DNA of 11,375 nt, from the NCBI GenBank assembly GCA_030042765.1, contig JASHZA010000109.1, positions 1 to 11,375 on the forward strand. The letters are read 5' to 3'. The notes beneath the pieces are model-generated. The model was not told the origin of the DNA. It ran no database searches and worked only from the letters and a program-made list of their open reading frames with translations. This stretch comes from Candidatus Binataceae bacterium. Its GTDB lineage: Bacteria > Desulfobacterota > Binatia > Binatales > Binataceae. Both the position numbers and the translations under genes were made by a program. Shown piece by piece: positions 2,722-11,375 of this stretch. The number at the start of each line of letters is the position of its first letter. Position 1 is the first letter of the stretch.

Positions 2722-3837
2722 TCAGAAGGTAGGCAGGTGCTGGATCTCCTTGTACTTGTAGTAGCCGGGCCCGACGCCATACTCCATGATTCCGAAGCCG
2801 ATGTCGTTGCCGCAGCGCCATTCGATCAAATGGTCGCTTAGCGTGCTCGCCTCGGCAAGCACCTTCGGGTCGCTGAGATCCCACACATCGTGCTCGACGT
2901 GGTATTCGCCCTTGCTGTCGCCATGGTACCAACCGCGGTACCCGCCATAGCCGCCGCCCTTGAGATGCCAGCGCGGCTGGTGGGTCACGAAAGAAACGTC
3001 GCGCCGATTCCCGTTCTTGAAGTAGAGCTGGATCTCTCCGCCCTTGAGCGTCTGGACCGGTCCGGAGGCGTCCCAGCGAAATTCCTGTTCGGTCCGTTCC
3101 AGATGCCATCCGGGATCGCTTTTTTCGCCGAAGGGCCCTGCCCTTTCGCCGCTGAAATAACTGTATTTCCCGGGCCCGCGCTCGACGAAGCGCCAGTGGA
3201 GTGCATAGTTGGGAAATTGCGCCACCGACCAACTGAAGAGGAAAGGTGCGAAGGTGGTGCGGGTAGAATCCGAGGCGTCCGTGCGCAGGGGACGGCGTGT
3301 TCCCCATGATCGGTCGCGATGCGCCCACCAGACGTCTTCGCTCAGCGCGATAGTCTTGCCGCCCACTTCAAGCACACCGCGCACGCGGCCGGCCTGGTCG
3401 AAACGCGAGATATCCTGCACGATCTTGCCGCCGCTCTGGCGGAAGTCGTGCTCCTCCTCGTGCGGATTCATCGTCGCCGCCCATTCAAGGTCCAGGCGCA
3501 GGCTCGACGGGTTATCGTCCAGGCGCATCCGGAAGCGGCGCAATCCCTCGAGCACCTCGACCGACAACGGTCCGATCTTCACCTCGTCGATTCTCGGCCG
3601 CAGCGCGCGCGACGCGCGAAAGTTGTACTGCTTGCCCTGATGCCACACGGTGGCGAATCCGTCCTGCACGTTTTTGTTCGGATATTGGCCTACGCCGAAG
3701 CCAATCATCGCGTCCTTGTCGCGGACGTTGTAGATGCTTACGTAGATGCGCTCGGTCCATTCCGGGCTGTCCGTTTGCACATGGTCCATCGTCGTCGGCA
3801 ACTGATGGCACATCATTTCGTCCCAAGCGCTCAACAT
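2722..3837 (-). CDS. CrtC/AttH-like lipocalin-fold protein (DUF7065/DUF7064 type)
   Basis: A 371-residue soluble protein without signal peptide or membrane segments. It resembles the bacterial two-domain proteins grouped as DUF7065/DUF7064, distant relatives of the hydroxyneurosporene synthase CrtC and AttH families built on paired lipocalin-like barrels. Visible hallmarks are an N-terminal WDEMMCHQ (residues 5-12), GFGVGQYPN at 46-54, IGPLSVEVLEGL at 88-99 and the second-domain motif HRDRSWGTR at 173-181. CrtC itself hydrates a carotenoid double bond. For this branch no reaction is established to my knowledge, but binding or hydrating a hydrophobic isoprenoid- or steroid-like ligand is a reasonable inference. 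The ATG at 3837 has GGGGAG at 3845-3850, 7 nt away. It lies between the phosphotransferase and the SDR in the minus-strand operon, the company such genes often keep with phosphotransferase and F420-type oxidoreductase genes. Function remains uncertain. Confidence 0.82.
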   Translation of the reverse strand: MLSAWDEMMCHQLPTTMDHVQTDSPEWTERIYVSIYNVRDKDAMIGFGVGQYPNKNVQDGFATVWHQGKQYNFRASRALRPRIDEVKIGPLSVEVLEGLRRFRMRLDDNPSSLRLDLEWAATMNPHEEEHDFRQSGGKIVQDISRFDQAGRVRGVLEVGGKTIALSEDVWWAHRDRSWGTRRPLRTDASDSTRTTFAPFLFSWSVAQFPNYALHWRFVERGPGKYSYFSGERAGPFGEKSDPGWHLERTEQEFRWDASGPVQTLKGGEIQLYFKNGNRRDVSFVTHQPRWHLKGGGYGGYRGWYHGDSKGEYHVEHDVWDLSDPKVLAEASTLSDHLIEWRCGNDIGFGIMEYGVGPGYYKYKEIQHLPTF

Positions 3838-8364: not shown

Positions 8365-9234
8365 GTGTCTGCCCAGCGCGATGGACATAAATCCGCGGCG
8401 AGCGATGCAGCGGGAGAATCGCCACTGCCGGCGGCGAAGTCGATGCCGACCGGACTCGAAAATCTGCGGTACGCGGAAGACGACGGAGTCGGGCTGCTCA
8501 CGATCGACCGCCCCGCCGTTTACAACGCGATCAGTCTCGCCACCATGGACGAACTGGACCGCGTTCTCGACTGGCTCGAAAATGGATCGCAGGCCGGAGC
8601 GCTGGTGGTCACCGGCGCCGGCGAACGGGTCTTCGTTTCGGGAGGCGACCTCAAGGATTTCGAGTCACTCACCACTTACGATGCCGCGGCCGCGATGTCG
8701 CGGCGAATGCAGCATCTGATGGCGCGCCTGAGCGGCCTGCGGATACCGGTGATCGGGGCGATAAACGGCGACTGCCTGGGCGGCGGATGCGAATTTGCGC
8801 TGGCGACGGATATCCGGATCGTGAGCGAAGGCGCGCATTTCGGCTTCAAGCAGGTGACGCTCGGAATAACCCCGGCGTGGGGCGGGCGGGGCCGGCTGGT
8901 GCGGCTGATCGGCCGTTCGAGAACGCTGATGCTGCTGCTCTCCGGAGACCTGATCGACGCGACCGAGGCTCGTCGGATTGGCCTGGCGGACCGGGTGACG
9001 CCGGCGGGCGAGGTGCTGGCGGCGGCGCTCGAGCTGGCGCGAAGTATCGCGCGGAATCCGCGCGGGGCAGTCGAGGCGATAAAGCGCACGGTCAACCATG
9101 ACGAAGCGGCCGGCGGCGAGGATGCGATCGAGTTCGAAGCCGACGTTTTTGCCCGGACCTGGATTTCCGAGGATCATTATGAAGCGCTGGCGGCCCGCAA
9201 GGAGAAGCGAGCGCCGAAGTTTCGCGGACGTTGA
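8365..9234 (+). CDS. enoyl-CoA hydratase/isomerase (crotonase) family protein, possible acyl-CoA decarboxylase-like
   Basis: A 289-residue crotonase-fold protein. After a polar leader of about 30 residues come the CoA-binding and oxyanion elements: IDRPAVYNAIS at about 47-57, VFVSGGDLKDF at 89-99 and NGDCLGGGCEFALATDIRI at 134-152. Rat mitochondrial enoyl-CoA hydratase uses two glutamates. The first corresponds to E143 here and is present. The second, normally in a PEI motif, is Q163 (FGFKQVTLGITPAWGG). Classical water addition is therefore unlikely. The PAWGG loop with RLVRLIG and a downstream LLSG segment is reminiscent of ethylmalonyl/methylmalonyl-CoA decarboxylases (ECHDC1 type), and E. 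coli also keeps a crotonase decarboxylase (scpB) beside a methylmalonyl-CoA mutase. Isomerase or other acyl-CoA chemistry is equally possible. It is 35 nt ahead of the mutase gene and first in the operon visible here. Family sure, reaction inferred. Confidence 0.93.
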   Translation: MSAQRDGHKSAASDAAGESPLPAAKSMPTGLENLRYAEDDGVGLLTIDRPAVYNAISLATMDELDRVLDWLENGSQAGALVVTGAGERVFVSGGDLKDFESLTTYDAAAAMSRRMQHLMARLSGLRIPVIGAINGDCLGGGCEFALATDIRIVSEGAHFGFKQVTLGITPAWGGRGRLVRLIGRSRTLMLLLSGDLIDATEARRIGLADRVTPAGEVLAAALELARSIARNPRGAVEAIKRTVNHDEAAGGEDAIEFEADVFARTWISEDHYEALAARKEKRAPKFRGR

Positions 9235-9269: not shown

Positions 9270-11003
9270 ATGGCTAATGAGTCCGAAGCCAGTGGCGGCA
9301 AGGCGGAGGCGCCAAACGGCGTCGCTCGAGAGCGCGCATCCGAGAATGGGAAGGGAAGCGGTAGTTTCGCCGAGGCCGAACGCCGGTGGCGCCAGCGCGT
9401 GGAAGCCAAGCCGATCAGTCCCGCGCGAACTTCTTCGGGACTCGACATTGACTTTGCGTACACCCCCGAAAGCATAAGCCATCTCGACCCGATGGAAGAT
9501 ATCGGGCTGCCCGGTGAATTTCCTTTCACGCGCGGGGTGCAGCCGACGATGTATCGCGGGCGGCTGTGGACGATGCGGCAGTACAGTGGGTTCGGAACGC
9601 CGAAGGAGTCCAATGCCCGCTACAAATGGCTGCTGGAGCAGGGCCAGACAGGGATCTCGGTGGCGCTCGACCTGCCGACGCAGCTCGGCCTGGATTCGGA
9701 CGATCCCGAAGCGGCCGACGACGTGGGGCGGGTGGGCGTTGCGATCGACACGCTGGCCGACATGGAGACGCTTTTCGAGGGTATCCCGCTGGATCGAATC
9801 AGCACCTCATTCACGATCAACGCGACCGCGGCGATTCTGCTGGCGATGTACCTGGCGGTGGCCGAGCGCAACGGCGTACCGGCGGCCAAGATCAGCGGGA
9901 CGGTGCAGAACGATATCCTGAAGGAATACGTGGCGCGCGGCACCTGGATTTTCCCGCCGGAACCGTCGCTGCGGCTGATCGTCGATACGATCGAGCATTG
10001 CATGCAACATGCTCCGCGTTTCAACGCGATCAGCGTAGCGGGGGCGCATTTCCGCGACGCCGGCGCGACGGCGGTGCAGGAACTCGCGTACACGTTGGCC
10101 GACGGCATCACCTATGCGGAGCGATGCGTCAGCCGCGGGCTCAAGGTCGATGAGTTCGCGCCGCTGATCAGCTTTTACTTTTACACGCATAACGATCTGT
10201 TCGAGGAAGTGGCCAAGTATCGCGCGGGGCGGCGGCTGTGGGCGCGCCTGATGAAGGAACGCTTCGGCGCGCGCGACCCGCGATCGATGATGTTCCGCTT
10301 CGGCGTGGTATGCGGCGGGAGCACGCTCACGGCGCAGCAGCCGCAGAACAATATCGTGCGGGTGGCATACCAGGCGCTGGCGTCGGTGCTGGGCGGCGTG
10401 CAATCCGTGTTCACCGCGGCGTGGGACGAGGCCTTTGCGATCCCGACGGAGACCACGGCGGAGCTGGCGCTGCGCACGCAGCAGGTGCTGGCATACGAGA
10501 CCGGCGTGCCGAACGTCGCGGACCCGCTGGGCGGGTCATATTATGTCGAGGCGCTGACCGATCGAGTCGAGCGGGAGGCAGCGGCGATTATCGATCGAAT
10601 CGACCGCATGGGCGGGATGGTGCCGTGTATCCAGAGCGGGCTGATCCAGAAGGAAATCGCGCTCGAGGCGTATCGGCATCAGCGGCGGATCGAGAGCGGT
10701 GAGCAGGTGGTGGTCGGCGTGAACAAATTCAGCCGCGAGGAACCGGAGCGCCGTCAACTCGAACTCTACGAAGCCGATCCGAGCCTGGGGACGCGCCAGC
10801 GCGAGGAACTTGCGAAGGTCAAAGCGTCGCGCGACAACGCGCGCGTCCGCCGCGCTTTGGATGAATTGCGCGAGACGGCGCACGGCAGCGGGAGCCTGAT
10901 GCCGCCGATAATCGAAGCGGTGAAGGCGTATGCGAGCGTGGGCGAAATCTGTTCGGTGCTGCGCGCGGAATTCGGCACCTTCACGGAGCCGACCAGCCTC
11001 TAG
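9270..11003 (+). CDS. coenzyme-B12 acyl-CoA mutase, catalytic (large/alpha) subunit, methylmalonyl-CoA mutase family
   Basis: A 577-residue catalytic subunit of the split type: the TIM barrel is here and the cobalamin domain is the next gene. It rearranges the carbon skeleton of a CoA ester by a radical route. Core motifs: TMYRGRLWTMRQYSGFGTPKES at 93-114, SVALDLPTQLGLDSDDP at 130-146, SGTVQNDILKEYVARGTWIFPPEP at 209-232, LAYTLADG at 272-279, FYTHNDLFEEVAKYRAGRRLW at 304-324 and VADPLGGSYYVE at 416-427. Residues equal to Tyr89, Gln197, Arg207 and His244 of the P. shermanii enzyme are kept (Y105, Q213, R223, H260). However, Tyr243 is A259, and the HCQ strand (His328, Gln330) reads GVV at 345-347. 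The HND segment is more like isobutyryl-CoA mutase. Substrate is therefore open. ATG at 9270 is preferred: GGAG lies at 9257-9260, while the TTG at 9231 overlaps the previous stop. Confidence 0.95.
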   Translation: MANESEASGGKAEAPNGVARERASENGKGSGSFAEAERRWRQRVEAKPISPARTSSGLDIDFAYTPESISHLDPMEDIGLPGEFPFTRGVQPTMYRGRLWTMRQYSGFGTPKESNARYKWLLEQGQTGISVALDLPTQLGLDSDDPEAADDVGRVGVAIDTLADMETLFEGIPLDRISTSFTINATAAILLAMYLAVAERNGVPAAKISGTVQNDILKEYVARGTWIFPPEPSLRLIVDTIEHCMQHAPRFNAISVAGAHFRDAGATAVQELAYTLADGITYAERCVSRGLKVDEFAPLISFYFYTHNDLFEEVAKYRAGRRLWARLMKERFGARDPRSMMFRFGVVCGGSTLTAQQPQNNIVRVAYQALASVLGGVQSVFTAAWDEAFAIPTETTAELALRTQQVLAYETGVPNVADPLGGSYYVEALTDRVEREAAAIIDRIDRMGGMVPCIQSGLIQKEIALEAYRHQRRIESGEQVVVGVNKFSREEPERRQLELYEADPSLGTRQREELAKVKASRDNARVRRALDELRETAHGSGSLMPPIIEAVKAYASVGEICSVLRAEFGTFTEPTSL

Positions 11004-11014: not shown

Positions 11015-11375
11015 GTGAAATCGGGCCCAATTCGAGTTGTGATCGCGAAGCCGGGACTGGACGGGCATGACCGTGGCGCCAAGGTGATCGCGTACGCGTT
11101 GCGCGACGCGGGAATGGAAGTCATCTATACGGGCCTGCGCCGGAGCACCGAGGAAATCGTCAATGCCGCGATCAGCGAAGATGCGGATGCGATCGGACTG
11201 AGTATCCTGTCCGGCGCGCATATGGCGCTCGCGAAAAAGATATTGGACGGACTCAGCGAGGCGGGCAGCGATGAGGTGGCGGTCTTTGTGGGCGGGACGA
11301 TTCCGCCGCGCGACGTTGAGCCGCTTTTGCAGTTGGGAGTCGCGGGGGTATTTCCCACCGGCACGCCGCTCAAGG
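11015..11375 (+). CDS. acyl-CoA mutase cobalamin-binding (small/beta) subunit, 3' end outside window
   Basis: The first 120 residues of a B12-binding subunit that pairs with the preceding catalytic chain. The base-off/His-on signature is complete: DGHDRG at 16-21 (D16, H18, G21), SIL at 63-65 in SILSGAH, and the GG of VFVGGTIPP at 93-94. H18 is the lower axial ligand to cobalt, and the other motifs line the dimethylbenzimidazole tail pocket. Stand-alone subunits of this kind are about 130-150 residues, so only the last 15-30 residues are missing. The start is GTG at 11015, 11 nt after the mutase stop, with GGAGG 5 nt before it. All cofactor-binding residues look normal, in contrast to the altered substrate pocket of its partner, so the enzyme is probably active. 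A MeaB/ArgK-type GTPase or epimerase gene would be expected downstream but cannot be seen. Confidence 0.96.
   Translation, partial: MKSGPIRVVIAKPGLDGHDRGAKVIAYALRDAGMEVIYTGLRRSTEEIVNAAISEDADAIGLSILSGAHMALAKKILDGLSEAGSDEVAVFVGGTIPPRDVEPLLQLGVAGVFPTGTPLK

Follow-up and report, generated by a model that had tools for sequence, protein, structure and literature searches.

A Widespread Branch of B12-Dependent Acyl-CoA Mutases with a Rebuilt Substrate Pocket, and Its Possible Role in the Conversion of Substituted Succinates

A stretch of 11,375 nucleotides from a Candidatus Binataceae bacterium (the window, which is the whole of contig C249) encodes the large subunit of a B12-dependent acyl-CoA mutase in which the pocket residues Tyr243, His328 and Gln330 are replaced by alanine, glycine and valine. 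Mutases with this signature are widespread and no curiosity of a single organism, and on sequence comparison they make up a separate, apparently uncharacterised branch, in a tree with methylmalonyl-, 2-hydroxyisobutyryl- and ethylmalonyl-CoA mutases as references. The residues, the clade, the gene linkage and the Glu-to-Gln change of the linked crotonases are observed; from pocket residues and gene context we infer activity, substrate class, direction and the role of a neighbouring crotonase-fold protein, and we give even chances to the resulting reading: an active AdoCbl mutase for the pair 2-substituted succinyl-CoA and substituted-methyl malonyl-CoA, working with a decarboxylating crotonase. 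The broader proposal, to which we give slightly less than even chances, is that a new specificity class of B12 mutases and a new crotonase decarboxylase with the residue pair E144/Q164 form an Sbm-like cycle for bulky 2-substituted succinates, widespread in proteobacteria and uncultured phyla.

The Mutase Gene and Its Substrate Pocket

The large (substrate) subunit is encoded at positions 9270..11003 of the forward strand, in a frame of 577 residues (9270-11000). It scored 712.8 bits to TIGR00641 (cut-off 303.8) and also matched PF01642; profile and fold both place it in the acyl-CoA mutase superfamily. The methylmalonyl-CoA mutase equivalog model NF006944, which describes the fused protein including the B12 domain, gave 583.5 bits against a cut-off of 876. 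The mutase fold is intact in the predicted model; an earlier AF2 model built from 23 alignment rows was poor (pLDDT 67.5).

Residues were numbered according to the P. shermanii methylmalonyl-CoA mutase, by alignment to 1req, 2xij and 4r3u. The original prediction held that the radical-cage tyrosine had become alanine beside an unchanged histidine, and the alignment agrees: Tyr243 corresponds to Ala259 (10044..10046, forward strand, as for all residues here) and His244 to His260 (10047..10049). The predicted loss of His and Gln from the RAHCQTSG strand was likewise found, as the segment RFGVVC (R343, F344, G345, V346, V347, C348; 10296..10313) aligns with Arg326-Thr331, placing G345 at H328, V347 (codon 10308-10310) at Q330 and cysteine at Thr331. 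Equivalents of Tyr89 (Tyr105; 9582..9584), Gln197 (Gln213; 9906..9908) and Arg207 (Arg223; 9936..9938) are kept, as had been read from the sequence, and so is that of Glu370 (E387). Arg207 is the carboxylate-binding arginine, human Arg228, according to the account in PMC10356863. Pocket changes beyond those listed earlier are F117L (Leu133; 9666..9668), T331C and N366A (Ala383; 10416..10418).

Against four relatives, the window mutase gave dN/dS of about 0.13-0.19, with dS near saturation; the pair with L113 was out of frame and was dropped. A sequencing error or a one-off change as the origin of the pocket was ruled out, because the substitutions are held across all relatives listed.

Conservation and Phylogeny of the Signature

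The set A243/H244/G328/V330 was present in all 120 nearest proteins, in all 52 new proteins around the relative from genome G150 and in 120/120 around a Diaphorobacter relative, in each case among the matches listed. A pooled alignment of 437 rows, partly redundant in that, for example, some contigs are present twice, contained 316 rows with A243, every one of which also carries H244, R207, G328 and V330. Position 117 is leucine in 313 of these 316 (serine, alanine or a gap in the rest), and position 366 is Cys in 180, Ala in 135 and Thr in one. All 121 rows lacking A243 have Y243, which agrees with the predicted near-invariance of this tyrosine, and nearly all have Q330 (120), H328 (118) and F117 (120). 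The states at 243 and 330 are never mixed in any row. Outside the clade, G328 was met in two of the 121 rows, both of the ethylmalonyl type (L151, beside ccrA, and the partial L003).

With the diagnostic columns removed, the carriers, represented by 13 rows, formed one clade in a careful tree of 50 rows (UFBoot 100, SH-aLRT 99), in 100% of 200 bootstrap trees, and in a quick tree of 93 rows (SH-aLRT 97). The methylmalonyl-, 2-hydroxyisobutyryl- and ethylmalonyl-CoA mutases used as references were all placed outside it, so that the window protein falls in none of their clades. It also lies outside the F89/Q207 rows and outside a three-row group with I89/Q207. Every row of the 93-row tree with F, I or V at position 89 has Gln207, including the 2-hydroxyisobutyryl-CoA mutases.

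Compared with known enzymes, the window mutase shares Y89, Q197, R207, H244 and E370 with the methylmalonyl-CoA mutases (1req, 2xij and E. coli ScpA), which differ at Y243, H328, Q330, F117 and N366 and form a separate clade. HcmAB, the 2-hydroxyisobutyryl-CoA mutase (4r3u), has I89/Q207 with Y243, H328 and Q330, unlike the Y/R pair of the window, and is also in a separate clade. The ethylmalonyl-CoA mutase MeaA (L151) has Y89, R207 and G328 in common with the window protein, but keeps Y243 and Q330 and is very distant in the tree. The pattern F89/Q207, presumably that of isobutyryl-CoA mutase, is not that of the window, judged by these two residues. The statement that the enzyme fits neither the methylmalonyl nor the isobutyryl pattern thus stood as to pocket, clade and the missing F89/Q207, but its Y89/R207 pair is of the methylmalonyl type.

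These shared residues bear on the alternative that an unusual pocket is all that sets the protein apart from methylmalonyl- or ethylmalonyl-CoA mutases: Y89 and R207 are kept and G328 recurs in ethylmalonyl-type rows, but the clade is separate and the window genome holds, in addition, a normal mutase (L002; Y/R, HAQT) and an ethylmalonyl-type fragment (L003), both with Y243 and Q330. We regard this explanation as quite improbable. No description of the A243/G328/V330 signature was found in the open-licence papers searched. The suggestion of an undescribed specificity class was strengthened by this result and by the position outside the three reference types; G328, shared with two ethylmalonyl-type rows, is not unique to the clade.

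Several other mutases were met in the same comparison. A Bacillota protein (L009:608-2245, reverse strand) has T75, V85, L117, F328 and Y330 together with Y243 and an end branch of 1.16 in the tree. Plasmids of Sinorhizobium and Shinella (L141 and L145) carry a V89/Q207 mutase beside genes for an aminotransferase, a B12 subunit, MeaB, a crotonase and an AMP-binding protein; the L141 crotonase has the E/E pair, and the L141 mutase is sister to the 2-hydroxyisobutyryl-CoA mutases. Proteins of Chloroflexi and Dehalococcoidia (L022, L023, L027, L037 and L040) have S366 and V360 in otherwise ordinary pockets, and L022, L023 and L040 form a group of their own in the tree. Four proteins from the phylum of the window (L100, L101, L102 and L109) have C366 and I287, yet Y243, H328 and Q330.

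Distribution of the Clade

Assemblies with the motif belong, by source name, to Candidatus Binataceae, Proteobacteria, Deltaproteobacteria, Gemmatimonadetes and Nitrospinota (7 of 80 loci); those labelled Proteobacteria (L004) and Deltaproteobacteria (L006) are genomes G300 and G317, which are of the window's own family. Carriers are also found in Cupriavidus, Variovorax, Comamonas, Hydrogenophaga, Rhodoferax, Diaphorobacter, Paraburkholderia, Marinobacter and Sulfitobacter. Seven of the 428 plasmid records with a match had at least 60% identity to the Diaphorobacter protein, and five of the seven (all but NZ_AP023176 and NZ_AP028998) were read and carry the signature. A survey of 297 genomes, in which the motif was looked for in 30 loci and mostly four candidates were scored per genome, gave at least four genomes with the signature (the window genome, G179, G150 and G222). 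In a survey of 57 genomes, eight, including the window genome, passed E 1e-215, and all eight have the motif.

Gene Neighbourhood

The gene order in the window is crotonase, 35 bases, mutase, 11 bases and B12-binding subunit, with inferred start codons. The small subunit (11015..11375, forward strand), cut by the contig end, scored 143.6 bits to TIGR00640 (cut-off 57.45) and matched PF02310. It contains DGHDRG (His18, codon 11066-11068), which we take to be the cobalamin-histidine motif. This motif counts against a loss of mutase activity with the protein in another role, as do the retained H244, R207, Q197 and E370, the purifying selection and the undisturbed fold of the model. Such a loss would be in keeping with the changes at several near-invariant positions of the active site, but we consider it highly improbable.

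In nine of 14 genome loci (the window, L020 and L120-L126), the gene directly before that of the mutase encodes a crotonase homologue. The crotonase follows the small subunit in L008, and in L127 it follows the small subunit and a succinate-CoA-ligase-like gene. No crotonase was found in L128 and L129, where a CaiB/BaiF-type CoA-transferase is upstream of the mutase instead; TRAP transporter genes are near the mutase in both. The contig of L010 starts at the mutase, leaving its upstream side unseen. Ten of the 14 loci have a B12 subunit next after the mutase; the sequences of L126, L129 and L020 stop at the mutase itself, and in L010 the next 4.8 kb contain no B12 subunit. In this Nitrospinota locus (L010:1616-6464), an aldehyde ferredoxin oxidoreductase gene follows the mutase in its place. 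The ligase-like gene of L127 (10778-12556, forward strand), which separates the B12 subunit from the E/Q crotonase, encodes a protein of 593 residues with the alpha part of a succinate-CoA ligase in its C-terminal half.

All five plasmid loci (tblastn; four annotated, L153 without annotation) have genes for crotonase, mutase, B12 subunit, CoA-transferase and MeaB-like GTPase in that order. Directly after the GTPase is a TTT- or TRAP-type carboxylate transporter gene in L130, L131 and L137, and an adenosyltransferase gene in L132. A related IclR regulator adjoins the operon in L123, L125, L130, L131, L137 and L153 and so links the Binataceae version to the proteobacterial one. The GTPases of the four annotated plasmid loci are 34-40% identical to E. 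coli ArgK; one that was scanned scores as MeaB just below cut-off (199.2 vs 240.75). No match to the L137 MeaB-like protein was found at E 1e-5 in the window genome (2.08 Mb, 53% complete). The best models for the CoA-transferases were succinate-glutarate (L128, L130) and oxalate (L137); as all scores were far below cut-offs, they name fold and reaction type and not substrate.

Among the Binataceae loci read, a CoA-transferase lies within the stretch in L121 only, and it was rejected as evidence, since each of the 11 genomes tested has related genes. Naming the substrate from flanking genes was also rejected, because the flanks outside the core operon vary between loci. A steroid 3-ketoacyl-CoA-type thiolase gene is present at two Binataceae mutase loci (L123, scanned and above cut-off; L124, a clustered homologue), and in L123 also a pentalenolactone-type Baeyer-Villiger monooxygenase gene, with its model below cut-off. 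Elsewhere in the window, 2722-3837 (reverse strand) encodes an Rv3169-family protein (NF053593, 308.1 bits vs 150) near genes for an APH-type kinase and an F420-dependent LLM oxidoreductase. No Rfam match at gathering scores was found in the window.

The Linked Crotonase

The crotonase-fold partner (8443..9234, forward strand, start codon inferred; PF00378), which adjoins the mutase in related loci as well, retains Glu144 and has Gln in place of Glu164. Hydratases typically need both glutamates. The E144/Q164 pair was present in 16/16 mutase-linked crotonases examined. Genomes G300, G314 and G179 had 43 crotonase matches, of which 30 were read: three have E/Q, exactly the mutase-linked ones, nine have E/E, and one more has Gln164 but Ile144. 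The E. coli methylmalonyl-CoA decarboxylase ScpB resembles the linked crotonases in keeping Glu144 and lacking Glu164. The window crotonase is 38% identical to the enoyl-CoA hydratase 5z7r, 25% to ScpB and 32-36% to the proteobacterial linked crotonases; the nearest linked ones are those of L008 (49%) and L020 (43%). Since it is nearer to an ordinary enoyl-CoA hydratase than to ScpB, decarboxylation by the crotonase is a guess. The E/Q pair may have had several origins; a single one is not supported by these identities.

Proposed Function and Alternatives

In the proposed route, a CaiB/BaiF-type (class III) CoA-transferase would, in the proteobacteria, convert an R-succinate to R-succinyl-CoA, from which the mutase would form a substituted malonyl-CoA. 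The linked crotonase would remove CO2 from this product, the resulting acyl-CoA would enter beta-oxidation, and the MeaB-like GTPase (proteobacteria) would serve the cofactor. In the pocket, Arg207, Tyr89 and Gln197 would still hold the free carboxylate beside the retained His244, while the lost side chains of Tyr243, His328 and Gln330 would leave space at the reacting carbons for a bulky substituent.

The original prediction suggested a bulkier or differently branched acyl-CoA. The rebuilt pocket is in keeping with this, but Arg207 points to a dicarboxylyl-CoA over a merely branched monocarboxylic acyl-CoA, and the former is the more likely substrate judging from residues and gene context. 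Arg207 is kept, whereas the F/Q, I/Q and V/Q rows lack it, and CoA-transferases, a succinate-CoA-ligase-like gene and carboxylate-type transporters are nearby. According to PMC10356863, in the part concerned with this residue, human R228 makes a salt bridge to a substrate analogue and R228Q is inactive, which also favours a dicarboxylyl-CoA. The pocket also favours an extra substituent, as it lacks three to four large side chains, one of them missing in ethylmalonyl-CoA mutase types as well; the limitation of G328 outside the clade to two ethylmalonyl-type rows fits room for a C3 substituent.

The same evidence weighs on the rearrangement of a bulky monocarboxylic branched acyl-CoA, which the earlier guess allowed. 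Fewer large pocket side chains and the beta-oxidation-type genes near the L123 mutase (the thiolase above cut-off, the monooxygenase below) would suit it, but all F/I/V89 rows of the 93-row tree have Gln207, the A243 rows have Arg207 in 316/316, and the neighbouring genes for CoA-transferase, ligase-like protein and carboxylate transporter speak for a second carboxylate. We therefore hold this alternative to be very doubtful.

The route through substituted succinyl-CoA has several known parallels: the E. coli Sbm cycle (PMC5391575), the alkane route (PMC7701123) and the indoleacetate route (PMC8360864), as far as these sources describe them. The E. coli sleeping beauty mutase operon scpA-argK-scpB-scpC, described in PMC5391575 as converting succinate to propionate, combines the same four gene types, for a mutase, a G-protein chaperone, a CoA-transferase and a crotonase-fold protein (the decarboxylase ScpB), but its substrate is succinate and ScpB is distant from the window crotonase. 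Another bulky malonyl/succinyl pair is that of ActD/MatB, a proposed hexylmalonyl-CoA mutase (PMC5719088, as described there), which is biosynthetic and was compared by description. As for the CoA-transferases, we assume that of the E. coli scp operon to be of another class than the linked ones.

The clade could also represent a known activity as yet unmatched by sequence, either that of the phenylsuccinyl-/benzylmalonyl-CoA mutase IaaGH from Aromatoleum or that of the alkylsuccinyl-CoA mutase in anaerobic alkane degraders. IaaGH, the nearest analogue in function and compared by description, has its step flanked by those of IaaL (phenylsuccinyl-CoA transferase) and IaaF (a decarboxylating dehydrogenase; PMC8360864, as outlined there); its place next to a CoA-transferase and ahead of a decarboxylating step is a likeness. 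A rearrangement of this kind is also required in alkane degradation, according to a passage of PMC7701123, and the rearranging enzymes of that route were called not conclusively described in 2018 in a passage of PMC6163223. Against such an identity, decarboxylation in the Iaa route is the work of an acyl-CoA dehydrogenase and not of a crotonase, four of six genomes with an A243 mutase lack a PFL-like glycyl radical enzyme, and the glycyl radical match in G150 is best on choline trimethylamine-lyase, below cut-off. We consider it unlikely on balance, though the chemistry of the clade may coincide with that of IaaGH. A link to anaerobic fumarate addition was rejected on the same glycyl radical survey, in which the G150 match is choline-trimethylamine-lyase-like and the G222 matches are unclassified.

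Implications

If true, the conversion of 2-substituted succinyl-CoA by the A243/G328/V330 mutases would widen the substrate range of the acyl-CoA mutases by one class and would explain many genes named only methylmalonyl-CoA mutase. For the related alkane route, both the rearranging and the decarboxylating enzymes had not been conclusively described according to the 2018 account (PMC6163223, in the passage concerned). The mutase and crotonase would offer a concrete, testable enzyme pair for the breakdown of substituted succinates, and the members from Cupriavidus necator and Variovorax make the clade testable in cultured bacteria.
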